Assembly: GCA_021155965.1 (NCBI GenBank)
Contig: JAJNBJ010000003.1
Location: 124,001 to 188,000, forward strand
Origin: Flavipsychrobacter sp.
GTDB lineage: Bacteria > Bacteroidota > Bacteroidia > Chitinophagales > Chitinophagaceae
DNA: 64,000 nucleotides
Direction: 5' to 3'
Part shown: positions 7,585 through 51,307 of the stretch, one piece after another
Position numbering within the stretch: the first letter of the stretch is position 1
How the letters are laid out: each line of letters begins with the position of its first letter
Position numbers and translations under genes: made by a program
The notes under the pieces: generated by a model
Told to the model about the DNA's origin: nothing
The model's database searches: none
What the model saw: only the letters and a program-made list of their open reading frames with translations

Positions 7585-7656
<72 letters not shown>

Positions 7657-7660
7657 CTAA

Positions 7661-7880: not shown

Positions 7881-10800
7881 TTATCTTGAAATAGCCACCG
7901 GGATGTTTATTGTGCCCCCATCAGCATATATTGTCAACAGATATATACCATTGGCAAGATCACTGTTTAACTGTATTCTATGGCTTATTGCTCCATTCGT
8001 GTTAGTTATTGTATTACTATAAACGACACGGCCTGTCAGATCGATTATATCCATGCGTATGAGGTTATTATCTGACGGTATGTGTCCTTTAACAACAAAT
8101 TCTCCATTATTAGGATTGGGAATAACCCTGATGTCTGCTGGCAGTTTAGACACTCCTTTCACCTCAACACCATAAACGTACACTGTTAGAGAAGATGAAC
8201 CGGACATACCGGCACATGCGCTGCTTGCGGTAACTTTACAGGAAACAACATCGCCATTGGCAAAGTTGGACCTTGTAAGAGAAACACCGGTTACTCCGGC
8301 AACAATGTTGCCGTTGATCTTCCATTCGCATACAGGTGCTGTTCCGCCATTGTTGATCACTGCGGTTATGGTCATTGACTGACCAGGCGTGATGTTAGGC
8401 TGAGAAGTAACAAGCGATACCGTTGGCGGTACAGGAGCATCAACGCGCATGATCACCTTATTGCTTGTAGCATCATCGATCCGGCGGCAACTGTAACTGC
8501 TCGTCATTATACATTCTATTTCATCTCCATGCTCAGGCCGATAGCTATATATTGATGAAGAAGCTACCACAATACCGTTCCTGACCCATTGGTATGCAGG
8601 CGAAGCACCTCCGAATGTTGCGGTTGCCTGGTAAGTAACATTAGTGCCCTCGCAAACATTAAAACTTGGGCTTGCCGTGATTGTTACAGATGGTGTTTCG
8701 GTATTGCCAACAGTGATCGTTTTTGATGCAGATATGCTTAATGGTAACGCACATGCAATACTGCTGGTCATTTGTACTGACACCACATCTGCATCTGTCG
8801 GCAGGTAAGTGAAAGAGCTACCTGCACCCATGCCTGTGCCATTCACTGACCACTCGTAGTACGGTGCAGAACCTCCATTCACAGGAATAGCCGTGAGCGT
8901 GATCAATGTGCCTGAGCAAGCGGTATCCCCAACGCTTGACGCAATTATAACTGACGGGATCGAAGCCGGGATAACGCTTACAGATGCACTTCCGGACATA
9001 TTGTTCACGCAACCGGTAACTGTGTCGGTAGCGCGGACAGTGTATACTCCGGCAGCAGTTTGAAGTCCCAGGCCAGAAGCAAAACCAGTACCATTTAACG
9101 GGCTGCCGGTGGGAGAAGTGCCATTGTAAAGCTGGTAGCTAACGCCAACAGAGGTATTTGCAATGCCAATAGAAACACCTGCACCACCCGCGCAATAGCT
9201 GCCGCCGCCAACAACAAGATGCGAAACAGGAAGCGGGTTGATAGCTATTGAAGCAGTACCCGGCATGGTTGATAAACATCCGGTTGCAGCATCAACTGCT
9301 GTAACAATATATGATCCGGGTACAACCTGAGGCCCGAAATCCACAGGACCTCCTGTGCCAGGTACTGGCACGCTAACCAGTGTTGTACCATTATACAACC
9401 TGTAGTTGATGCCTGCATCGGAACCAACTACGCCTATTGTAACCCCACTGCCGCCAGGGCAATAGCTGCCACCGCCTGTAACTGCGAAGCCGGCCGGTGA
9501 CGGGCTGATACCAACGATCGTCGTTCCGGTCATGTTGCTGGCACAGCCGGTAATTAAATTGGTCGCTATTGCGGAGTAAGTACCTGTTGCAGTGGTCAAA
9601 CCGAAATCAATTGCTGATCCGGTGCCTGTGAAAGGTGTGCCAAAAGGCGTGCCATCTAATAACAGCTGATATGTTACACCTGTAGAGGAACTGCCAAGGC
9701 CAATGTGTACACCTGTGCTGCCGGCACAGTAATTGCCACCGCCATTTATCGCAAATACTGCGGGAGCAGTATTTGTGCTCACGTTAGCCGCACCCGACAT
9801 AGTGCTGGTGCAGCCGGTAATATCATCAGTAGCAACAATATTGTAAGCGCCTGTAGTTGTTCGCAACCCGAGATCAATTGCACCACCCGATCCGGCAACA
9901 ACAAGGCCAGATGCAGTTGTGCCCATGAAGGACTGGTAGCTTACGCCAGCATCAGAGTTGCTCAGGCCGATCGGCACACCCGCTCCGCCTGGGCAATAAC
10001 TGCCGCCCCCGGTAACTGTATACACATTTGGCCTTGCATCAATTGATACATTTGCAGATCCCGACATCGTATTGACGCAAGCTGAAGTTGCATCAGTGGC
10101 GATCACGTTGTATGTTCCTGCCATCAGGTAACTGCCAAAATCTAAGGAAGATCCTGTGCCGGCCATAGGAGGGCTCACAGCCGTTGAACCTTCGTAAAGT
10201 TGGTAATTAATGCCGGTGGCAGAGCCATCTATGCCTATATGCGCGCCCGGGCCTGCATCACAATAACTGCCACCGCCGGTTACATTATATTGTGCTGGTA
10301 ACGTAACTATACTAACTACAGCGCTTCCATTCATTGCATTGGTGCATGAGGTCACGTCGTCTTTAGCGATCACGGTATAATTTCCTGCTGCTACCTGGTT
10401 GCCAAAGTCGAGTGGCGCGCCTGTACCGGCTAACGGAGTACCCACTGTTGAAGGTCCCTCGTAAAGCTGGTACGACACTCCGGTAACAGAACCATTTAAT
10501 TCTACGTTGCGTCCTGTGCCGCCTGCGCAATAACTTCCACCTCCAAGAACATCGTATGCAACTGGCAGCGGGTCAACAACTACATCAGCGGAGCCATACA
10601 TCATGTTTTGGCATCCTGTGCCTATACTGGTTGCTTTAACCTGGTAATTACCTGCGATCGTCTGCAGCCCGAATCCGATAGGTGCACCGGTACCGGAAAT
10701 AGCCAGGCTGGCCGCGGTTGTCCCCCTGTACAGTTGGTAGGTTATACCCGGATCAGAAAAGCTGACACCAACATGTACGCCAGTACCATCTGCACAGAAA

Positions 10801-13800
10801 TTGCCACCGCCTGTAACCGAATAACTTCCCGGCAGAGGTATGGCGAACACAGATACACTACCCAGCATTGTACTTTCGCAGCCAAGGGTGTTAGCCGCCA
10901 TAACATAGTAAGAACCTGCTGCCGCCTGTGCGCCAAAATCAATAACAGCGCCAGATCCAATTATGCTTTCTATTAATGACGCACCACTATATAACCTATA
11001 GGTCACGCCTGCTTCTGAATTATCAAGGCCAACATGCACGCCAGTGCCGCCTGCGCAGAAACTACCGCCACCCGTTGTATTATATACATTCGGCACCGGG
11101 TCTAATGCAATGTTTGCACTTCCGGTCATAACTGCAGCACATGTTGTACCTGAAGCAAGCGCTATAGCAGTATACGTGCCCGCAGATGTTTGCAGTCCGA
11201 AATCCAGGGCACCGCCGGTTCCGGTTACAGATGCCCCTACCGGCGTGCTGCCGTTGTATAATTGGTAAGCGCTGCCTCCGGCGCTGCTGCTGAGGCCCAC
11301 CGGGACACCCGTGCCACCGGGGCAAAAGCTGCCGCCGCCTGTTACCGTATAGAGTACCGGCATCGGCATTATAGCGATATTACTGCTGCCCGGCATTGCG
11401 CTGCTGCAGCCTGTAGTGGCATCAACTGCTTTTGCTGTATAGGTGCCAGGTGTTGTAAGCGCACCAAAACTTATACTTGTTCCAGTGCCTGCAACCGGCG
11501 AACCAACAGCTATGCCCCCCCTGTATAACTGGTAGTTTATACCTATGTCGGACCCATCAAGATCAATATTCACACCAGGCCCGCCGGTGCAATACCCGCC
11601 GCCGCCGGTTACTATGTGTGGGGCAGGCGGTGGATTTATGCCAACGCTTGCAGTACCGCTCATTGCTTCAGTGCAGGAAGTTACAGCATCAGTTGCTGAG
11701 ACCGTGTAGATACCCGGTACTGTATGCATACCCCAACCGATGGCTAACCCGGTACCGGAGATCATCGCCCCAACCGGTGAACCTCCACGGTATAATTGAT
11801 ACTGCACACCCGGCGCAGAACCACTTAATCCAATATTCACTCCTGCACTTCCGGGACAATAATTGCCGCCTCCTGTAATAGTATGTACAGCAGGCACAGG
11901 CAGTGTGCTAACATTTGCGCTGCCTGTCATATTGTTGCTGCAGCCTGTCGTAGCATCAGTTGCTGCAACAGTATATATACCTGCACTTGTTTGTAATCCG
12001 AAGTCAAGAAGTGCGCCTGTGCCCGGTACCGGTGACCCCGTTGCTGTGCCACCAAGATATAACTGGTAGTCAACACCCGGTGTTGATGAAAGCAACCCTA
12101 CCGAAACACCTCCGCCGCCGGCGCAATAATTTCCGCCACCGGTTACGGATTGACTGATTGGTAACGGCGATGCACTGATGGCCACGCTGCCTGCCATGTC
12201 ACTTGTACACCGTGTTGACACATCGGTAGCCACAACTGTGTATGAACCCGTTACGGTTTTAATGCCAAAGTCCAGCGCAGAACCGGTTCCTGCTACTGCA
12301 GTGCCAACCATTGAACTGCCATTGTATAGTTGATAATTGTTGCCAACCGACGATCCGCTTAAGCCAATGTGCAGGCCTGGGCTGCCGGCACAATAGTTAC
12401 CCCCGCCTGTAACGGTATAAGATGCAGGTGCCGTATGCAGAGATACAGAAGCACTGCCTGCCATATTGTTGCTGCAGCCTGTAGCTGTATTTGTTGCTGC
12501 AACTGTGTAACTTCCCGGCGATGCCTGAAGCCCCATATTAATTGCGGAACCGGTGCCGGCAAATGGTGAGCCAATAGCTGAACCGCTTTGATACAATTGG
12601 TAACTGATACCTGTATTTGAATTACTCAGGCCAACCGGGATGCCGCCTGTGCCAGGGCAAAATGCGCCTCCTCCCGTCACAATATAACTTGCAGGCAGGG
12701 GATCTATGCCAACAGCTACGCTCCCGGCCATTGTGCTGAAACACAAAGTTGACGGATCAGTTCCAACAATTGTATAGGTTCCCGTTACAGTTGCATTACC
12801 AAGCGGCAATGCAGAGCCTGTTCCGGCAACTGTTGCACCGACTGGCGTTCCTGCCAGCATCATCCTGTAATCTATGCCTGATTGTGATCCAGTGAGGCCT
12901 ATAGATACACCACTGCTACCAGCGCAGTAGTTGCCGCCGCCGGTTGCCGAGAAGGTATTATCGGGCAATGGATTGATGGAAATGGTTGCGCTGCCCGACA
13001 TATTCGATGTGCAGCCACCACTATTTGTAGCTACAACCGCATAGCCGCCTGGCGCCGTTTTTAAGCCGAAGCCAATGGCAGACCCCGTTCCTGCTGCTGT
13101 TCCAACAACGCTGCCTCCATTGTATAACTCGTAAGTGACACCCGGTGCTGAACTGCTTACGCCTATGCTGATGCCGGAGCCTCCGGCACAATAGCCACCA
13201 CCACCCGTAACAGTATACACTGCTGGGTTAGCAATAACACCAACCACCGCGCTGCCATTCATTGTGCTAGTGCAGCCGGTAATATCGTTGGTCGCCCTGA
13301 CGGTGTAGGTACCCGACGTTGTTTGCAACCCGAAAGTGATGGGCGCACCAGTGCCAGCTACCGGAGAGCCAACGGATGTTGAACCTCTCCTCAGCTGGTA
13401 ACTAATGCCAGCAGCAGATGTATTGAGGCCTATACTCACACCGGTCCCGCCTGAACAATAATTGCCGCCTCCTGTCACATTGTAGGCAGCAGGCAGGGCA
13501 TTTACGGTTATTGTGGCGTACCCTGTCATCGTGCTGCTGCAGCCTGTAGTCGTGTTGGTGGCCAGGACCGTGTAGGTACCACCCGCAGTAAACGAACCAA
13601 AATCAAGCACGCTGCCTGTTCCGGTTACTGTAGCGATTAATGAAACACCATTGTATAATTCATATTGAATACCACTTGTTGAGCTACTTAGCCCAATGTG
13701 GTAACTTGTGCCAGTTCCGCTGCAATATGCTCCACCGCCAGTAACAGTAAAGCTTGTTGGCAGGGGATCAACCGACACAACGGAACTCCCGGTCATTGTG

Positions 13801-16067
13801 CTCGTACATCCGGTAACAACATCAGTGCCAACTACCGTATAAGTTCCTGCAGATGTCTGATACCCGAAGTTAAGTGAAGTACTCGTCCCTATCATTGGTG
13901 TTCCAACCGGTGTGCTGCCATTATAAAGCTGGTAGTTTACACCTACAGTTGAAGACGCAAGGCTGACATTAGAGCCTAGTCCCCCCGCACAATATGGCCC
14001 ATCGCCTGACACTGAAAATACAGGTGGGGCAGAGTCAATAGAAACAATGGCCGAGCCACCCATATTAACTGCGCAGGCCGTTCCGGGATTGGCAATAACT
14101 GTGTAGATACCAGGTGTGAGAAAGTAGCCGAATGTCAATGTTCCACCAGTACCTATTGCCGGTGATCCCAGCGGGCTTGAGGAATGATATAACTGGTATA
14201 TCACGCCCGGATTGGTTGCGCTAACGCCAACTAACACACCTACTCCGTCAGAGCAATATGCCCCTCCGCCCGTCACGGCGTAAGCAGTTGGCGGGTTCGT
14301 AACTGCCACACTAACCGTTTCGGTACATCCTGTAGAAGTGATAACATAAGAAATTATTGCTGTGCCAAGAGTTAACCCGGTGACAACACCACTGCCTGTG
14401 CCGACCATTGCGATTGACGGTACACTGCTGCTCCACGTACCGCCGGGAGTGGCGTCGCTTAAAGTTGTGGTGTATCCTATGCACATGCTTGGTGTGCCGG
14501 TTATGGGAGACAAAGCATTGACCGTAACTGAGTGCATTGTGTTGCATCCCCCAGGCATTGTATAGGTTATGATTGATGATCCAGCCCCTGTGCCGGTAAC
14601 CACACCTGTACTGCCAATAGTTGCCCCACCGCTGGCCGACCAGGTGCCCCCGATTGATGTATTGCTCAAAGTGATCGATTGTGTTTCACAAACTGACGTT
14701 GCCCCCGAAATTGCTGCAGGCATTGCGTTTACTGTGAATTGGAATACAGTACTGCACCCACTGGACAAAGTATAGGATATATTGGGTGTGCCTGCCGCTA
14801 CTCCTGAAACTACGCCAGACGAGTTGACCGTAGCAACAGATGTATTACTGCTTGACCATGTGCCGCCTGATGTAGTATTGCTAAGGGCTGTTACGCTGCC
14901 TGAACAAATATTATTGGTTCCGGTAGTGGTAGCGGGGGAAGTATTTACTGTTATTGGTTTTGTTACAAAGCAACCGCCGGCTGTTACTGTATAAGTAATG
15001 GTGGCTGTGCCGGCTGTTACCCCGTTTACCACACCGGTAGTTGCACCAACTGATGCAACAGATGAGTTACTGCTGCTCCATGTGCCCACACCAGAAGATG
15101 TTAAAGTGATGGTATTGCCGGTGCATATAGTTGAACCACCTGAAATAGCCGATGGCACTGCATTGACGGTCACAATTTTTGTAGCTGCGTTACCGCATGC
15201 AGACATATATGAGATAGTTGCCGTTCCGGCAGCAACTCCGCTCACAACGCCACCGGAAGTAACTGTAGCTACCGAAGTATTGCTGCTGCTCCATGTTCCG
15301 CTTGAAAGAGAATTCGTCAGAGTAGTGGTACTGCCTGCACAAATGCTTGCCGTGCCTCCTATAGTTGGCACAGGCGGGCACCAGGTAAATATCAAACCGT
15401 TCGCAGGCTTTACACTATTGTTTGAGGTACACTGTACCGAGTTGCTTGTGCCGGCCGTTGTTGCAGACCAGTTACTTGTTGTTGTACGGTTATTGTAGTC
15501 GCTGGTGGAGGATCCATTGATGCCTACCTGCGGATAATAGTTAGTTGATAAGGAAGGTGTAAATGCTCCATATATGAACTCAATTTTATTTGAAGTTTCG
15601 TATAGTCTTATCTGGAAGTTCAACGGCCCGCTTGAGCTGGAACTGTAATAACAGACATTGAACCACTCGATAATGAGTACCCTGTTAGGTGAAGAACCTG
15701 TGACTTGAGAAACAACTCCACTACCCGAGGTGGCCCTGCGGTATATATCTTTACCCAGGGGAGCAATAGCATATGTTCTCGCACTTATTGGTGTATAAGA
15801 TGACGATGTAGAACTGCCAAAATTTATCCAGCCATTGGCATTTATGTTGAATGATGTATAATTATTGCCGCAGTATGTAAAAGTAAAACCAATACTGCGC
15901 CCGTTACTTGTATTATCGTCCCATGATCCAGAAAAGATTGTAGAGCCGCTGGACGAAATGCTTGAAAAAGTGCCCATGTCTTGTGAGAAAACATAAGAAG
16001 CCGCCGATTGTGCTTGTGCAACGGCAGCCGTTATGCATACGATCGCTAGTGTGTATAAGTATCTCAT
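7881..16067 (-). CDS. giant T9SS-sorted repeat surface protein (2728 aa): Big2-like domains, 20 tandem ~88-aa repeats, Ig/PKD-like domains and a T9SS type A C-terminal sorting domain
   Basis: Signal peptide MRYLYTLAIVCITAAVAQAQS; GTWSSSNTSVATV..GVVSGVAAGTATISY Big2 motifs; repeats VTGGGxYCxGGxGVxIGLxxSxxGxxYQLYxG...GTG...FG...GxYTVxATxxxTGCxxxMxGSAxV; C-terminus VIPNPNNGEFVVKG...VYSNT...LANGIYLLTI. Confidence 0.9.
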   Translation of the reverse strand: MRYLYTLAIVCITAAVAQAQSAASYVFSQDMGTFSSISSSGSTIFSGSWDDNTSNGRSIGFTFTYCGNNYTSFNINANGWINFGSSTSSSYTPISARTYAIAPLGKDIYRRATSGSGVVSQVTGSSPNRVLIIEWFNVCYYSSSSSGPLNFQIRLYETSNKIEFIYGAFTPSLSTNYYPQVGINGSSTSDYNNRTTTSNWSATTAGTSNSVQCTSNNSVKPANGLIFTWCPPVPTIGGTASICAGSTTTLTNSLSSGTWSSSNTSVATVTSGGVVSGVAAGTATISYMSACGNAATKIVTVNAVPSAISGGSTICTGNTITLTSSGVGTWSSSNSSVASVGATTGVVNGVTAGTATITYTVTAGGCFVTKPITVNTSPATTTGTNNICSGSVTALSNTTSGGTWSSSNTSVATVNSSGVVSGVAAGTPNISYTLSSGCSTVFQFTVNAMPAAISGATSVCETQSITLSNTSIGGTWSASGGATIGSTGVVTGTGAGSSIITYTMPGGCNTMHSVTVNALSPITGTPSMCIGYTTTLSDATPGGTWSSSVPSIAMVGTGSGVVTGLTLGTAIISYVITSTGCTETVSVAVTNPPTAYAVTGGGAYCSDGVGVLVGVSATNPGVIYQLYHSSSPLGSPAIGTGGTLTFGYFLTPGIYTVIANPGTACAVNMGGSAIVSIDSAPPVFSVSGDGPYCAGGLGSNVSLASSTVGVNYQLYNGSTPVGTPMIGTSTSLNFGYQTSAGTYTVVGTDVVTGCTSTMTGSSVVSVDPLPTSFTVTGGGAYCSGTGTSYHIGLSSSTSGIQYELYNGVSLIATVTGTGSVLDFGSFTAGGTYTVLATNTTTGCSSTMTGYATITVNALPAAYNVTGGGNYCSGGTGVSIGLNTSAAGISYQLRRGSTSVGSPVAGTGAPITFGLQTTSGTYTVRATNDITGCTSTMNGSAVVGVIANPAVYTVTGGGGYCAGGSGISIGVSSSAPGVTYELYNGGSVVGTAAGTGSAIGFGLKTAPGGYAVVATNSGGCTSNMSGSATISINPLPDNTFSATGGGNYCAGSSGVSIGLTGSQSGIDYRMMLAGTPVGATVAGTGSALPLGNATVTGTYTIVGTDPSTLCFSTMAGSVAVGIDPLPASYIVTGGGAFCPGTGGIPVGLSNSNTGISYQLYQSGSAIGSPFAGTGSAINMGLQASPGSYTVAATNTATGCSNNMAGSASVSLHTAPASYTVTGGGNYCAGSPGLHIGLSGSSVGNNYQLYNGSSMVGTAVAGTGSALDFGIKTVTGSYTVVATDVSTRCTSDMAGSVAISASPLPISQSVTGGGNYCAGGGGVSVGLLSSTPGVDYQLYLGGTATGSPVPGTGALLDFGLQTSAGIYTVAATDATTGCSNNMTGSANVSTLPVPAVHTITGGGNYCPGSAGVNIGLSGSAPGVQYQLYRGGSPVGAMISGTGLAIGWGMHTVPGIYTVSATDAVTSCTEAMSGTASVGINPPPAPHIVTGGGGYCTGGPGVNIDLDGSDIGINYQLYRGGIAVGSPVAGTGTSISFGALTTPGTYTAKAVDATTGCSSAMPGSSNIAIMPMPVLYTVTGGGSFCPGGTGVPVGLSSSAGGSAYQLYNGSTPVGASVTGTGGALDFGLQTSAGTYTAIALASGTTCAAVMTGSANIALDPVPNVYNTTGGGSFCAGGTGVHVGLDNSEAGVTYRLYSGASLIESIIGSGAVIDFGAQAAAGSYYVMAANTLGCESTMLGSVSVFAIPLPGSYSVTGGGNFCADGTGVHVGVSFSDPGITYQLYRGTTAASLAISGTGAPIGFGLQTIAGNYQVKATSIGTGCQNMMYGSADVVVDPLPVAYDVLGGGSYCAGGTGRNVELNGSVTGVSYQLYEGPSTVGTPLAGTGAPLDFGNQVAAGNYTVIAKDDVTSCTNAMNGSAVVSIVTLPAQYNVTGGGSYCDAGPGAHIGIDGSATGINYQLYEGSTAVSPPMAGTGSSLDFGSYLMAGTYNVIATDATSACVNTMSGSANVSIDARPNVYTVTGGGSYCPGGAGVPIGLSNSDAGVSYQSFMGTTASGLVVAGSGGAIDLGLRTTTGAYNIVATDDITGCTSTMSGAANVSTNTAPAVFAINGGGNYCAGSTGVHIGLGSSSTGVTYQLLLDGTPFGTPFTGTGSAIDFGLTTATGTYSAIATNLITGCASNMTGTTIVGISPSPAGFAVTGGGSYCPGGSGVTIGVVGSDAGINYRLYNGTTLVSVPVPGTGGPVDFGPQVVPGSYIVTAVDAATGCLSTMPGTASIAINPLPVSHLVVGGGSYCAGGAGVSIGIANTSVGVSYQLYNGTSPTGSPLNGTGFASGLGLQTAAGVYTVRATDTVTGCVNNMSGSASVSVIPASIPSVIIASSVGDTACSGTLITLTAIPVNGGSAPYYEWSVNGTGMGAGSSFTYLPTDADVVSVQMTSSIACALPLSISASKTITVGNTETPSVTITASPSFNVCEGTNVTYQATATFGGASPAYQWVRNGIVVASSSIYSYRPEHGDEIECIMTSSYSCRRIDDATSNKVIMRVDAPVPPTVSLVTSQPNITPGQSMTITAVINNGGTAPVCEWKINGNIVAGVTGVSLTRSNFANGDVVSCKVTASSACAGMSGSSSLTVYVYGVEVKGVSKLPADIRVIPNPNNGEFVVKGHIPSDNNLIRMDIIDLTGRVVYSNTITNTNGAISHRIQLNSDLANGIYLLTIYADGGTINIPVAISR
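8965..14290 (-). repeat. 20 tandem coding repeats of about 266 bp (about 88 aa), diverged
   Basis: Counted as 20 occurrences of the (V/T)xGGGxYC/FC block in the translated ORF, each paired with a downstream Cys in the TGC/SCT region. Confidence 0.88.
14290..15385 (-). repeat. five tandem Big2-like (bacterial Ig-like) coding repeats
   Basis: Five GTWS(S/A)... (V)VxGxxxGTxxISY units in the N-terminal part of the giant protein. Confidence 0.8.
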
Positions 16068-28540: not shown

Positions 28541-30469
28541 ATGAAGTGCTTTTTTTTAATCCCAGTTATTTTGTTGTTGGCCTATTCATCTGTTTTTGCT
28601 AAAAAAAGCGGGCAGGAGCGAATTGATTCTTTACTGGGTGAGGTATCTAATAAAAGAGATGATACCAGCCAGGTGAAGTTGTTGAGTGACTTAGCTGCGG
28701 CATATTCCGTTATTAACCCCGATGAAGGAATAAAGTATGGGGAACAAAGCCTGGCACTTGCCGGGAAATGTAATTGGAAAAAGGGCCAGGCAATGGCGAA
28801 CATTGATATTGGGTTAAATTACCGCACTAAAGCAGACTTCCAAAAAGCGCTGCAACATTATCAAAATGCCCTGAAAATAAGTGAAGAAGCCGGTCTTAAA
28901 AAAACTGTCGCTACTGCGTTGGGAAACATTGGTATTATTAATTCGGAAACGGGTAATTATCCCGGCGCCCTTGAATATTACTTCAAAGCGCTGAAAATAC
29001 ACGAAGAGTTGAATGACAGAATGGGTATGGCCAGGAATTTTGGCAATATCGGCAATATCTACAGTAAACAAAAAAACTCTTCTAAAGCGCTGGAATACGA
29101 CTTTAAAGCATTGAAGATATGTGAAGAGTTAAACCTTAAAAAAGGCATTGTTGTCAACCTTAATAATATTGGCAACGAATATGCGGATATGGGAGACATC
29201 CCTAAAAAATTGGAGTATTCTTTTAAGGCGCTGAAAATAGCCGAAGAAATACAGGATAAATATGAGATACAGAAAATTTATTGCAGCATCGGCATTGTTT
29301 ATTACAGGATGGGAAAATACCCCGATGCGCTGGAGAATAGCCTGAAAGCACTGAAAACTTCTGAAGAAATTCACGACAAATACAGCATTGCTTATAATAT
29401 AGCTCAGATAGGCTGCGTTTACAGCGATATCGCGAAAAACCTGCAAAGGGAAAAGCAGAAAGGCAATTTTAAATCATTTAGCAAAGATGAATTGTTGCAT
29501 AAAGCAACCGTATGGGTCGATAGCTCGGTGAAGCTATTTAAGGAAATTGGCAATGTGTCAGCGTTATTATATGCCATTGAAAACCTGTCAGAAATTCAAC
29601 GTGAATCGGGAAATTATAAAGGTGCGCTTGAGTCGTACCACAAATATGTTTTTTATAAAGATTCCCTTTTTTCACTGGAAAATAATGAAAAGATCACCAA
29701 TCTTGAAACTAAACGTGAACTGGACCTGAAAGATAAAGTGATAGAAATTAACAGGCTGAAAGTAATACAGAAACGCAAAACAAATATATACTTGTCTTGT
29801 GGAATCGCTTTGCTGCTTGTGGTGGTAGGTTTTGTAGTAAAAGAACGTAAAAAATCAGATAAGCTATTACTCAATATCCTGCCCGAGAAGGTAGCTGACG
29901 AACTGAAAAAGAAAGGCAGTTCTGCAGCGAGCCATTTTGATGCCGTTACGGTAATATTCGCGGATTTTGTGAATTTCACCAAGGCATCGGAACGTATGAG
30001 CCCGCAGGAACTGGTAAACGAACTGGATGCCTGTTTCAGGGTGTTTGATAAAATTACGTCTGATAACCATATAGAAAAAATAAAGACAGTGGGCGATGCA
30101 TACCTCGCGGTTTCCGGATTGCCAAAACCTAATGCCGGCCACGCAGTAAATATGATCAAAGCGGCAAAGGAAATTATGGCTTTTATGATGGACCGAAGGG
30201 CTAAGATCGGTGACAGGACCTTTGAGATACGCATCGGTATCCATTCAGGCACTGTGGTTGCGGGAATAGTGGGCATCAAAAAATTTGCTTATGACATATG
30301 GGGGGATACGGTAAATATTGCCGCGCGTATGGAACAAACTTCCGAACCTGGAAAAATAAATATTTCGCAAAGTACTTTCGATCTTGTAAAAGACAAATTC
30401 AGCTGCACCTATAGGGGCGAGATTGACGCTAAGAATAAAGGCGGCATGAACATGTACTTTGTAGATTAA
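28541..30469 (+). CDS. TPR-repeat membrane protein with C-terminal class III adenylate/guanylate cyclase domain
   Basis: Signal peptide, TPR units (ALEYYFKALKIHEEL...), TM helix YLSCGIALLLVVVGFVV, cyclase motifs VIFADFVNFT, IKTVGDAYLA, YDIWGDTVNIAARM. Confidence 0.93.
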   Translation: MKCFFLIPVILLLAYSSVFAKKSGQERIDSLLGEVSNKRDDTSQVKLLSDLAAAYSVINPDEGIKYGEQSLALAGKCNWKKGQAMANIDIGLNYRTKADFQKALQHYQNALKISEEAGLKKTVATALGNIGIINSETGNYPGALEYYFKALKIHEELNDRMGMARNFGNIGNIYSKQKNSSKALEYDFKALKICEELNLKKGIVVNLNNIGNEYADMGDIPKKLEYSFKALKIAEEIQDKYEIQKIYCSIGIVYYRMGKYPDALENSLKALKTSEEIHDKYSIAYNIAQIGCVYSDIAKNLQREKQKGNFKSFSKDELLHKATVWVDSSVKLFKEIGNVSALLYAIENLSEIQRESGNYKGALESYHKYVFYKDSLFSLENNEKITNLETKRELDLKDKVIEINRLKVIQKRKTNIYLSCGIALLLVVVGFVVKERKKSDKLLLNILPEKVADELKKKGSSAASHFDAVTVIFADFVNFTKASERMSPQELVNELDACFRVFDKITSDNHIEKIKTVGDAYLAVSGLPKPNAGHAVNMIKAAKEIMAFMMDRRAKIGDRTFEIRIGIHSGTVVAGIVGIKKFAYDIWGDTVNIAARMEQTSEPGKINISQSTFDLVKDKFSCTYRGEIDAKNKGGMNMYFVD

Positions 30470-30817: not shown

Positions 30818-31801
30818 ATGAAGAGAAGAACCCTCCAAATATTCGCCCTACTTATTTTCTGCGTGCAATTAAAGGCACTGTCGCAGATTGTGCTGACCAA
30901 TGCCACCAATGGCTACCTGCCGGGCTACAAGGTGTGGTTATATTACAATTGGTCGGTTAATACGGGATACTACCCGGTTTCGCCGGGTTATACAAGCAGT
31001 TTGACCCATACCTGGGACCTGCATGATATGACAACACTGCTTGGCCAGCGACTGGATTACAACCATTGCCCTGTTAACGCATCGCAGATAATTACACCCA
31101 ACGGAGATTGCGTATTGAATACAGACGACTACATTGTTCGCACCATGCACTATCCCTTCATGTACAACGTTCCTGACACGCTGATGAAATTTCCGATGGC
31201 ACAAGGCGACCACTTTAATACTACCTATTATACCACCAATCCCATCTCAACGTCTGCAAAATTCCGCACGGTGTATGGTACCGATTCGGTTGCTGCCGAT
31301 TTAGCAGGCAAACTGATATTGCCACATGCAACTTTTGATGAAGTTCTGAGAATAAGGACGGTGAGCAACTTCACAGATTCGAGCCATAGCACGGCAGATA
31401 CGGTATTCAGAACGCGTACTATAAAGTACGCCTGGTATTCGCCCATGCACAGGCAATACCTGCTGGTACTAGATACAAGCTATCTATACCGGAAATGGGG
31501 GTTCGACATTACTAACCAGGTGAGCGTTTATTCGGGCTATACGCTGCCCTTTCCTATGGCTGTGGCAGATCCTGCAAAACCACACAACCTGCTGGTCTCC
31601 CCCAACCCTGCAGGTGATGTGCTGACAGTTTCCTGCGCCGAAGGGCTCAACTCAGTAATTATTTGCAATCTAACGGGTCACAATTTACTCAGCCAATCGT
31701 TTACCTCCCGGCAAGCCGATCTGGATATTGCTCATCTGCCAGCGGGCGTGTACTTTATTAAGGTAAACGGCAGCGAAGTACGGCGGTTTGTGAAACAGTA
31801 G
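30818..31801 (+). CDS. T9SS type A sorting domain-containing protein
   Basis: Signal peptide plus C-terminal LLVSPNPAGDVLTVSCAEG...VIICNLTGHNLLSQSF...LPAGVYFIKVNGSEVRRFVKQ. Confidence 0.88.
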   Translation: MKRRTLQIFALLIFCVQLKALSQIVLTNATNGYLPGYKVWLYYNWSVNTGYYPVSPGYTSSLTHTWDLHDMTTLLGQRLDYNHCPVNASQIITPNGDCVLNTDDYIVRTMHYPFMYNVPDTLMKFPMAQGDHFNTTYYTTNPISTSAKFRTVYGTDSVAADLAGKLILPHATFDEVLRIRTVSNFTDSSHSTADTVFRTRTIKYAWYSPMHRQYLLVLDTSYLYRKWGFDITNQVSVYSGYTLPFPMAVADPAKPHNLLVSPNPAGDVLTVSCAEGLNSVIICNLTGHNLLSQSFTSRQADLDIAHLPAGVYFIKVNGSEVRRFVKQ

Positions 31802-45546: not shown

Positions 45547-46680
45547 TTACAACCCCACCCCAATTCCAAATTCTGAGTATTCAGCAACAGCCATATGAGT
45601 ATTGAGCAGTGCTGTAATAAATAGCTCCTTAATTACACCTTTCTCGCTTTGAATAAGGTATAGGTTAGCGCCAAACTTTTGATTGAAGGGATCGTTGCCA
45701 TAGGTGAGGTAAGTGGTGCGGTAGTAATAACCTACCTGCGTGAGTATCCCTACCCTGCCAATAAGAAATTCGTGGCCAAGGAAGAAAGTACCATCCCAGG
45801 CATTACTGCGCTCGTGGCCTGTGTGAATTCCATAAGTTTTGTAGAATGCATAGGTAGGTTCGTGGTAGGCATAATCAATGCCACCGTATATCTTATTCTT
45901 GCTCCGGTACCTTCTGCTCGCATAGCCAGATACAATATAGACAGGCAGATGCGGGTTGCCAGTGGCGTTGGCCTCATTGAAGCCGATGCCCATCCTCAGG
46001 TGCAGCAGCCACCGGTCAGCCAGCTTTGGGAGGTCACCCCTGATTATTCTTTTGGGTTTATAGGTTGCGGGGAAATATTGTATCCCCACATGCGCACCAA
46101 CCATATTCACACCAAGGTTAGGCGGCCTGAAATAGCCATTAGAAATGTGGGTGAAGTTCACACCCGCCTGCAACTGCCAGTGATCATCAGCATGATAACG
46201 CAGGTCTGTCATGAAAATAGCAAAGTCATTGATGTGCGAGCCTATTGCCGTATTCACAGTATCTGCTGGTGATCTGCGGCTGTATTTTTTAGTAACGTAG
46301 GCAATGCCATCACCAATACGAAGCGTCCATTCCAGCTTTTTACCGCGTACAATAGGTACCTGTATATTGGGATAAATGCCCACACAGTGGCCAAACACCT
46401 GGTTGTTGCCATAGTCGGTCAAGGTCATGCCCAACCCGATCTGCGGAAAATTGCGGCGCTGATGCCATTCTTTTTTGCCATAGGTCTGCCATACAAAATT
46501 CACATCCACTGCAGTAGATAGTTCTGGTATGGGTGCGGTGAATTTTTTAGTATGCTTAATGATCTTGCCTGCCATTAGGTTAGTTTCCACACCAAACCCT
46601 GAAAACGCATCGTCCTGCTGCGCGGATGCCCGGGCGGCTAGCAGTAATAATAGTATGCAGGTAAATGGTTTTATGGCCAT
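45547..46680 (-). CDS. acyloxyacyl hydrolase / PagL-like lipid A deacylase family protein (paralogue A)
   Basis: Signal peptide, outer-membrane beta pattern, FTHISNG resembling the PagL His-x-Ser motif; homologous to 49086-50228. Confidence 0.75.
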   Translation of the reverse strand: MAIKPFTCILLLLLAARASAQQDDAFSGFGVETNLMAGKIIKHTKKFTAPIPELSTAVDVNFVWQTYGKKEWHQRRNFPQIGLGMTLTDYGNNQVFGHCVGIYPNIQVPIVRGKKLEWTLRIGDGIAYVTKKYSRRSPADTVNTAIGSHINDFAIFMTDLRYHADDHWQLQAGVNFTHISNGYFRPPNLGVNMVGAHVGIQYFPATYKPKRIIRGDLPKLADRWLLHLRMGIGFNEANATGNPHLPVYIVSGYASRRYRSKNKIYGGIDYAYHEPTYAFYKTYGIHTGHERSNAWDGTFFLGHEFLIGRVGILTQVGYYYRTTYLTYGNDPFNQKFGANLYLIQSEKGVIKELFITALLNTHMAVAEYSEFGIGVGL

Positions 46681-49085: not shown

Positions 49086-50228
49086 TTAGATCCCAAAGCC
49101 TATCCCGAATTCAGCCAGTTGGGCAACCACAAAATGGGTAAGCAGCAAACCTGATACAAAAACTTCCTTTATGGGCCCTTTCTCGCGCTGCACAATATAG
49201 ACATTGCCCCCTATCTTTTGATAAATATCATCGAACTTCAGGAAGGTTTGCCGGTAATAATAGCCAACTTGTGTAACAAGCCCCACCCTGCCAACTATAA
49301 ATTCATTACCAACGAAAACAGCCCCATCCCAGGAGTGGCTTCTTTCATGGCCGATATGCACACCATAATTTTTCAGGAAGGCATATACATCGCCATGATA
49401 GGCGTAGTCCATCCCTATAAATAACTTATTCTTGCCAAGCCAGCGCCTGCTGAGGTAGCCCGCAGCAAAATAAGAAGGGCAAACCGGGTTGCCTGCCGCC
49501 CGCGCCTTTTTATACGAAATGCTGGCACGCCCCTGCAGCAACCACCTGTTGGGTAGTTTTTCCAGGTCTCGCACAATACGTTTGGGTTTGGAGCAGGTAG
49601 GAAAATACCTGACTCCCACGTGGCCGCCCAGCATATTGATGCCCAGGTTTGGCTCTGAATAATCGGCATTGGATATGTGTGTGAAATTAGCGCCTAGCTG
49701 GAACTGCCAATGGTCGTTATAACTATAACGCAGGTCGGTCATGAAGATTGCAAAATCGTTGAAGTGGCTACTTACGGCACTGTTGGCAGTATCCATAGGC
49801 TCATTCGCATTAGGGTTATACCGGCGGGTCACATACCCCAGACCATTCCCCAAGCGGAACGTCCACTCCAGGTCTTTGCCACTGATAATAGGTATCTGCA
49901 GGTTGGGATATATGCCCACGCACCTGCCATATATGGCGTTATTCCCATAGTCGGTAAAAGTGATACCCACTCCTACAACCGGGAAGCCCCGGCGCTGCTG
50001 CCAGTCCTTTTTGCCGTAGGTCTGCCATACAAAATTCACATCCAGCGCATTGGATAATGGCGGAACGGGCGAGGTAAATTTTTGGGTGTGCCTGATGATC
50101 TTGCCCGATAACGCATTTACCTCCACTCCAAAGCCAGCCAGCGGATCATTAGTTTGGGCGCACAGGCTTAACGGTGCAACCGCCAAAACAAATAGCACAA
50201 CCCTTAATGCATTACCAAACAAAGCCAT
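49086..50228 (-). CDS. acyloxyacyl hydrolase / PagL-like family protein (paralogue B)
   Basis: FTHISNADYSEPNLGINMLGGHVG; closely similar to 45547-46680; start set to the signal-peptide ATG. Confidence 0.75.
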   Translation of the reverse strand: MALFGNALRVVLFVLAVAPLSLCAQTNDPLAGFGVEVNALSGKIIRHTQKFTSPVPPLSNALDVNFVWQTYGKKDWQQRRGFPVVGVGITFTDYGNNAIYGRCVGIYPNLQIPIISGKDLEWTFRLGNGLGYVTRRYNPNANEPMDTANSAVSSHFNDFAIFMTDLRYSYNDHWQFQLGANFTHISNADYSEPNLGINMLGGHVGVRYFPTCSKPKRIVRDLEKLPNRWLLQGRASISYKKARAAGNPVCPSYFAAGYLSRRWLGKNKLFIGMDYAYHGDVYAFLKNYGVHIGHERSHSWDGAVFVGNEFIVGRVGLVTQVGYYYRQTFLKFDDIYQKIGGNVYIVQREKGPIKEVFVSGLLLTHFVVAQLAEFGIGFGI

Positions 50229-50263
50229 ACAGAACAAAAATAAAGCTATTTCTGTTCGGAAAA

Positions 50264-51307
50264 TTAATGCGTGGTTAGTTTTGTGCCGGAATGCCTTTTC
50301 ACGATGTTTCGTATAGGTTTTTCGATGAAATAATAGCTGATAATAGCTGTGACACATAATATTGCAAATGCAAAAAAGAAAAAGTATGAGGGCGATAGCT
50401 TTAAGTGGGTATTGTTAAACTCCGCTAAGGTCGCATATACCGGGAACTGTAAAATGTATATGCCGTAACTGATCTCTCCAAGAAAAACCAGTGGCCTGCT
50501 GTTTAGAAATACCGGATCATAAACAGCTACGCTAATAATGAACAATAAAAACAGCGGCGCAAACAATCCGACATCGAAAAATAGGTGAATTGGCTTTAAG
50601 GTAAGACCTAAAAGTATGACACAAAACAAAGCCAGAGGCATAAATGGAATTCTCTTTTTAAAAGGGCGCCTATGCATGAACCAATAGCCACCTACCATAC
50701 CTACCAGGAATTGATTGATATGCATAAGAGGATTATACATGAAAAAACTAAAGTTATTGGTCTGCGTAAAATCATTTTTAAAAAATATATGAAAAAGAAT
50801 TTGGGTCAGGAGAAAAATGACGATAGTAAACACGATGAATAATTGCTCTTTTTTCTTCTGAAAAAATAAAAGCAATGGAAACACTATATAAAAAAACATT
50901 TCCACTGAAATACTCCAGGCAGCGGTATTAAGCACTATCGCATATTCGGGTATATAGGTCTGTATAAAAAGTGCGCAGTAAATAATTTGTACCATTACCC
51001 CATGCGTATAGATATTCTTGTAAATACAGAAGAAGACCAGTATAAACCAACCTAATGCAAGATAATAAGCTGGCGCTATCCTTGCCAGGCGCTTCTTAAA
51101 ATAGCTCCGGTAGCTGCCATAACCGGGTGAATAAGAAATATATAGTACAAACCCGGAAAGCACATAAAAATAACTTACCGCAAGATTACCATTCATAAAA
51201 ATACCCCTTACACGGGTGAACGGCTCCTCCATTCTGCCAAAGTGGTAGATCAATATCATTATTGCAGCAAATGCACGGGTAGCGGTCAGAGAATTGATCT
51301 GTTTCAT
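50264..51307 (-). CDS. acyltransferase 3 family protein (paralogue B)
   Basis: INSLTATRAFAAIMILIYHFG; LGEISYGIYILQFPVY. Confidence 0.9.
   Translation of the reverse strand: MKQINSLTATRAFAAIMILIYHFGRMEEPFTRVRGIFMNGNLAVSYFYVLSGFVLYISYSPGYGSYRSYFKKRLARIAPAYYLALGWFILVFFCIYKNIYTHGVMVQIIYCALFIQTYIPEYAIVLNTAAWSISVEMFFYIVFPLLLFFQKKKEQLFIVFTIVIFLLTQILFHIFFKNDFTQTNNFSFFMYNPLMHINQFLVGMVGGYWFMHRRPFKKRIPFMPLALFCVILLGLTLKPIHLFFDVGLFAPLFLLFIISVAVYDPVFLNSRPLVFLGEISYGIYILQFPVYATLAEFNNTHLKLSPSYFFFFAFAILCVTAIISYYFIEKPIRNIVKRHSGTKLTTH

Follow-up and report, generated by a model that had tools for sequence, protein, structure and literature searches.

A twenty-unit array of divergent Ig_7-type domains in a giant predicted T9SS cargo protein of Flavipsychrobacter sp.

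Introduction

GhpA, the grappling hook protein of Aureispira, is a giant T9SS cargo (PMC11205867) of 5898 aa that forms a heptameric hook with a T6SS partner (PDB 9flp, 9flw, 9g8b and 9fly). RemA and SprB of Flavobacterium are T9SS surface adhesins, and the sorting domain of RemA is of type A. In Flavobacterium johnsoniae, cargo with a type A sorting domain takes the PorV route and is then anchored statically or released, while type B domains lead to the gliding track (PMC12618676). In the periscope proteins SasG, Rib and Sgo_0707 a rod of tandem domains projects an N-terminal domain; the repeats of these proteins are near identical and their number varies between strains (PMC8201768). The more identical tandem repeats are, the more their number varies, so that repeats which have diverged should keep a stable number; neighbouring domains with less than about 50% identity are thought to limit misfolding (PMC8201768). 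A long array of Ig-like repeats is also present in region II of MpAFP, an adhesin of Marinomonas primoryensis, where the repeats are identical and Ca-dependent (PMC4083281).

Here we describe a gene with 20 tandem Ig-like units in a stretch of 64,000 nucleotides from Flavipsychrobacter sp. (the window, by which we mean the whole stretch of DNA analysed). Tandem-domain stalks are usually discussed as length-variable, as in the periscope proteins; here, the number and order of the units persist despite near-saturated divergence and across differing heads, and the persisting count allows a direct test for selection on the stalk length as such. Furthermore, the protein ties a large unstudied group of T9SS proteins, for which no description was found in the literature, to GhpA, a single member whose structure and task are known.

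Results and Discussion

Domain organisation and export route

The gene is an intact open reading frame with an ATG start (Table 1). A giant single frame with 20 tandem two-cysteine units had been proposed in the original prediction and this was borne out, as 20 units with a G[GD]GxxC motif follow each other at a spacing of 87-89 aa with exactly two cysteines in every one. The putative signal peptide, read by eye, ends in AVAQA and is followed by QS. The mature chain has 62 cysteines, namely four in the N-terminal domain, one pair in each of five Big_2-like units, one pair in each of the 20 array units and eight in the three C-terminal Ig units. Five Big2-like units had been predicted, and five regular cysteine pairs agree with that count, while Pfam Big_2 itself, with the protein above its cut-off, covers four stretches. 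Similarly, the approximately three Ig/PKD-like units expected on the C-terminal side are present in the layout, with Pfam support that is sub-threshold (PKD_3 at 21.1 against 26.3 bits). The AF2 model of the head has a pLDDT of 63 only, a fold search with the head-domain model gave no confident match, and no recognisable adhesive domain was found in the protein.

The C-terminal type A sorting domain lies above the TIGR04183 cut-off of 23 bits, SprA is encoded in the genome (2439.7 bits) and at least 150 type A sorting domains are found in the 4.25 Mb of this genome, their actual number being higher. Hence, the assignment of the protein as a T9SS cargo is supported and, SprA being the T9SS gene found elsewhere in the genome, so is the proposed export route. 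The neighbouring genes encode RNase R and an NlpC/P60 protein, and no SprF-like gene adjoins the array gene. A tRNA-Met gene at 7585-7657 (+) lies between the array gene and that of RNase R and could be an insertion point.

Table 1. Features of the array gene, in window positions
Feature	Position	Strand	Basis or remark
Whole ORF, 2728 aa	7881..16067	-	
Putative signal peptide, aa 1-20	16008..16067	-	read by eye
Head domain at the N-terminus (aa 21-230), rich in beta strands, with a borderline nidogen-like (NIDO) match	15378..16007	-	NIDO 24.9 bits against a cut-off of 25
Five Big_2-like units, aa 231-590, one Cys pair each	14298..15377	-	Pfam and Cys spacing
Array of 20 Ig_7-type units, aa 591-2366	8970..14297	-	
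Unit 1 with unit-1 mark (one-residue deletion at model column 70, and NPGTxC)	14034..14297	-	
Unit 5 with unit-5 mark (one-residue deletion at model column 46)	12969..13232	-	
Unit 16 (fifth from the end), ordinary here (GGGSYC); GGG motif lost in most other arrays	10038..10304	-	
Three Ig/PKD-like units, aa 2367-2640	8148..8969	-	89 ORFs in the loci collected have a homologous tail
T9SS type A sorting domain, aa 2648-2720	7908..8126	-	TIGR04183 33.3 bits; PF18962 31.6 bits

The repeat unit and its cysteines

Twelve columns are invariant across all 20 units and the mean amino acid identity is 48%, with a pairwise range of 33-61%, which excludes a chance origin of the repeat. The original prediction regarded the repeat as unnamed and non-standard. 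This did not hold, as the sequence places it in Pfam Ig_7 (PF19081, Ig-like domain CHU_C associated) as a divergent subtype: the whole protein reaches 132.4 bits over 19 stretches against a curated cut-off of 27.3. When units are taken singly, 10 of the 20 match Ig_7 at E<1 (best 4.1e-8) and the remaining ones are tied to them by the identities given above. Since the units match a known Pfam family, novelty at the domain level is removed on the prediction's own terms. Compared with typical Ig_7 domains, the subtype is 89 aa long, carries a GGGxYC and TGC...M signature and is concentrated in one genus.

An Ig-like sandwich is confidently predicted as the fold of the unit, three consecutive units being modelled as all-beta sandwiches of this kind with a mean pLDDT of 94.8. 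In the predicted model, C15 comes directly after a short strand (12-14) and C76 directly before another (77-79), and the two cysteines would face each other if these strands pair. We infer one intradomain disulfide per unit, an idea strengthened by the conservation of both cysteines, which are retained in 1507 of the 1514 unique units of the collected loci. As the two cysteines are almost never lost, their co-loss is unusable as a test of the disulfide. Disulfides are documented in the Bacteroidota periplasm (PMC12635249); in this genome VKOR was not found and a DsbA-like protein gave one marginal match only. The extended fibre of tandem two-cysteine domains proposed in the original prediction is a plausible reading.

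Relationship to GhpA

The PDB was searched with a profile built from non-overlapping unit triplets, which gave one clear sequence, GhpA of Aureispira sp. CCB-QB1 (E 1.3e-41); a profile of the single unit missed it. Independently of the profile search, Foldseek returned three GhpA fragments as the top three fold matches and, in the alignments listed, the cysteine columns of the unit coincide with cysteines of GhpA. GhpA is the nearest solved relative, by profile and by fold. As a control, GhpA was compared with a stretch of ordinary Ig_7 sequence taken from a different protein of this genome, which matches it better (E 1.5e-67), so that a link specific to GhpA was rejected: the link is one of domain family and does not make the protein a grappling hook. 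Indeed, the two proteins are alike in being T9SS-secreted giants with homologous Ig-like domains, but they share only about 20% identity, the layout of GhpA is different and no in-register cassette of 20 units is shown for it.

Divergence of the units

The units of the window protein are as far from each other (48.8% identity within the array) as from units in other proteins of the genome (48.7%) or in other genomes (49.6%), and neighbouring units are no more alike than distant ones. At the DNA level the units are 53% identical, with 33% identity at third codon positions. A recent tandem duplication was rejected, as there is no lag structure and the third positions are saturated. Assembly collapse is unlikely because the unit DNA is only 53% alike. 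Hence, the highly identical tandem repeats by which periscope proteins are recognised are not found here (mean 48% in amino acids and 53% in DNA, with a maximum of 61%) and, whereas the number of periscope repeats varies between strains, the count of 20 is modal and in register. Orthologous array pairs with 64-90% positional identity all keep 20 units, in a comparison made among arrays of equal length only. The array also differs from region II of MpAFP in that its units are diverged, charge-poor, of the two-cysteine kind and free of DxDxD.

Unit number and register

Loci were collected by similarity to the window protein; the sample is biased to its subfamily and the frequencies given below are not unbiased. 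It holds 135 complete arrays, of which 87 have at least five units, from 26 genomes. A tail class was defined by a tail of 350-375 aa, made of three Ig units and the sorting domain, and includes 58 arrays of at least five units (loci L034-L106, L113-L132 and L156-L183 together with the window). Exactly 20 units are found in 27 of these 58 arrays, which come from nine genomes and combine heads of 224-3138 aa with tails of 363-371 aa. Next in frequency are counts of 21 (six arrays), then 35, 12 and 11 (three arrays each), no array has 22, and the class ranges from 6 to 62 units. Five of the 20-unit arrays, the window protein included, belong to this genome. The longest array seen, at L051, has 62 units in a frame of at least 6805 aa.

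When 20-unit arrays were compared two by two, in the 321 pairs below 58% positional identity, units at the same position are more alike than others, and this is the case only at shift 0. The excess reaches z=27 against shuffled unit order; as the pairs share ancestry, this z describes register and not independent events. Furthermore, three positions carry marks. The one-residue deletion of unit 1 occurs in 16/27 twenty-unit arrays against 0-1 at other positions, and that of unit 5 in 19/27 against 0-5. At the fifth unit from the end, the GGG motif is lost in 42 of the 58 arrays; at each of positions -1 to -4 and -6 the loss affects 1-3 of 58, and shuffled arrays give a mean of 7.7 and a maximum of 19. 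This last mark is present in every tail-class array of 19 or 21-62 units. The fifth-from-last unit, towards the membrane, may be a joint or site of a specialised kind. The window protein has the marks of units 1 and 5 and is an exception in lacking the third, its unit 16 being the only one, among the 27 arrays of 20 units, to have an ordinary Gly at column 24 of the model. That the unit count is fixed, in register and common to paralogues had escaped the original prediction.

The stalk and tail together behave as one old, non-homogenised cassette of fixed length that was duplicated with exchange of the head, and not an expanding, homogenising array. The published ideas on repeat stability and misfolding account for part of the fixed-count pattern. 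A count of 20 could also result from pure inheritance together with low unit turnover, without selection on length; a change in unit count is possible, since arrays of other lengths exist. A second class of arrays (L093, L172 and L176), with a 705-aa tail and 23-26 units, has lost GGG at the shared positions -6, -9, -10 and -12 and is another registered cassette.

Distribution of the subtype

This genome encodes about 229 units in about 24 genes, and the open frames of these genes sum to about 183 kb, or about 4% of the genome. The subtype was found in 24 of 24 sampled congeners, in few other families of the order and in 20 of 396 genomes across the phylum. Thus, a whole genus devotes about 4% of a genome to one Ig_7 subtype. 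The named records of this group come from Bacteroidota MAGs; many bear only the label Bacteroidetes bacteria, while others are given as Taibaiella, Chitinophagaceae or Sphingobacteriales. No phage homologue was found. The nearest head homologues share no neighbour genes with the window protein, so no gene-order orthologue was found among them, and they have arrays of 11 or 20 units, which speaks for an exchange of heads. In this same genome (G000), a very large protein of 9551 aa, in whose open frame 13 units of the subtype occur, is encoded at about 208000-247800 of C16 (L120 and L121).

Proposed function and alternatives

The protein is, in our judgement, probably a T9SS-exported and surface-anchored stalk that carries a variable head for binding at a distance of roughly 80-110 nm from the cell; the adhesion and the stalk length are both inferred. 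The chain would be exported by Sec through its putative signal peptide and its Ig-like domains would fold in the periplasm, each being probably closed by one disulfide between the cysteine before strand B and the one in the F-G loop. By analogy with the type A cargo of F. johnsoniae, the sorting domain would then direct the protein by the PorV route through SprA, followed by static anchoring or release. The 20 Ig_7 units and three Ig units would form a stalk of standard length holding the NIDO-like/Big_2 head at the distance given above from the membrane, if each Ig domain adds about 4 nm, and the head would bind a surface, a polymer or another cell. An ancient stalk-and-tail cassette would have been duplicated and then joined to different heads, and divergence to about 48% in amino acids and 53% in DNA may suppress recombination between units, keep the count at 20 and limit misfolding between neighbours.

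A secreted protein with a structural role in a sheath or biofilm matrix, lacking a specific ligand and using its array as spacer bulk, would agree with the charge-poor array (77 of 1776 residues charged), in which neither RGD nor DxDxD motifs were found, with the many paralogues and with the fact that type A cargo can be released (PMC12618676). On this reading there would be no reason to expect a unit count so exactly fixed and in register behind such different heads, and we regard it as unlikely. A filament in which several chains form a multimeric hook of the GhpA type and catch prey or other cells is a little less probable still: GhpA is indeed the top profile and fold match, and both proteins are giant T9SS cargo (PMC11205867), but the stronger match of ordinary Ig_7 domains of this genome indicates a shared domain type and not a shared function, and GhpA differs in length and layout. 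Moreover, TssC (PF17541), the T6SS-iii marker for the killing that goes with such a hook, is absent from the genome, while the same model finds it above cut-off in 13 of 295 genomes of the class.

A mobile gliding adhesin of the SprB/RemA kind seems to us the least probable of these alternatives. The protein is a T9SS giant, SprB-repeat proteins are encoded elsewhere in the genome, and the whole protein matches RemA at E 1.9e-14. However, a relationship with RemA was rejected, as the match is reproduced neither by the head alone nor by the Big_2 region alone and is probably compositional. A search of the array protein at E up to 10 reported neither SprB repeats nor a type B sorting domain; no lectin domain was found, and the gene lies beside RNase R and NlpC/P60 genes with no SprF neighbour. 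SprB had been named as an example of the long T9SS repeat adhesins, but its repeats are missing from the array and GhpA is nearer. An SprB-like gliding role ranks low because the sorting domain is of type A, a type that does not send its cargo to the gliding track (PMC12618676).

For the surface-anchored stalk that we favour, a further and doubtful possibility is that it acts as a molecular ruler, in which selection would hold the stalk length and unit order, with a specialised joint fifth from the membrane end, so that many heads of one genome stand at a common height.

Other genes of the window

Another small T9SS cargo protein, without other Pfam domain, is encoded at 30818-31801 (+). The protein encoded at 28541-30469 (+) combines TPRs and a class III adenylate/guanylate cyclase domain, and two PagL-like lipid A deacylase genes lie close together at 45547-46680 (-) and 49086-50357 (-).
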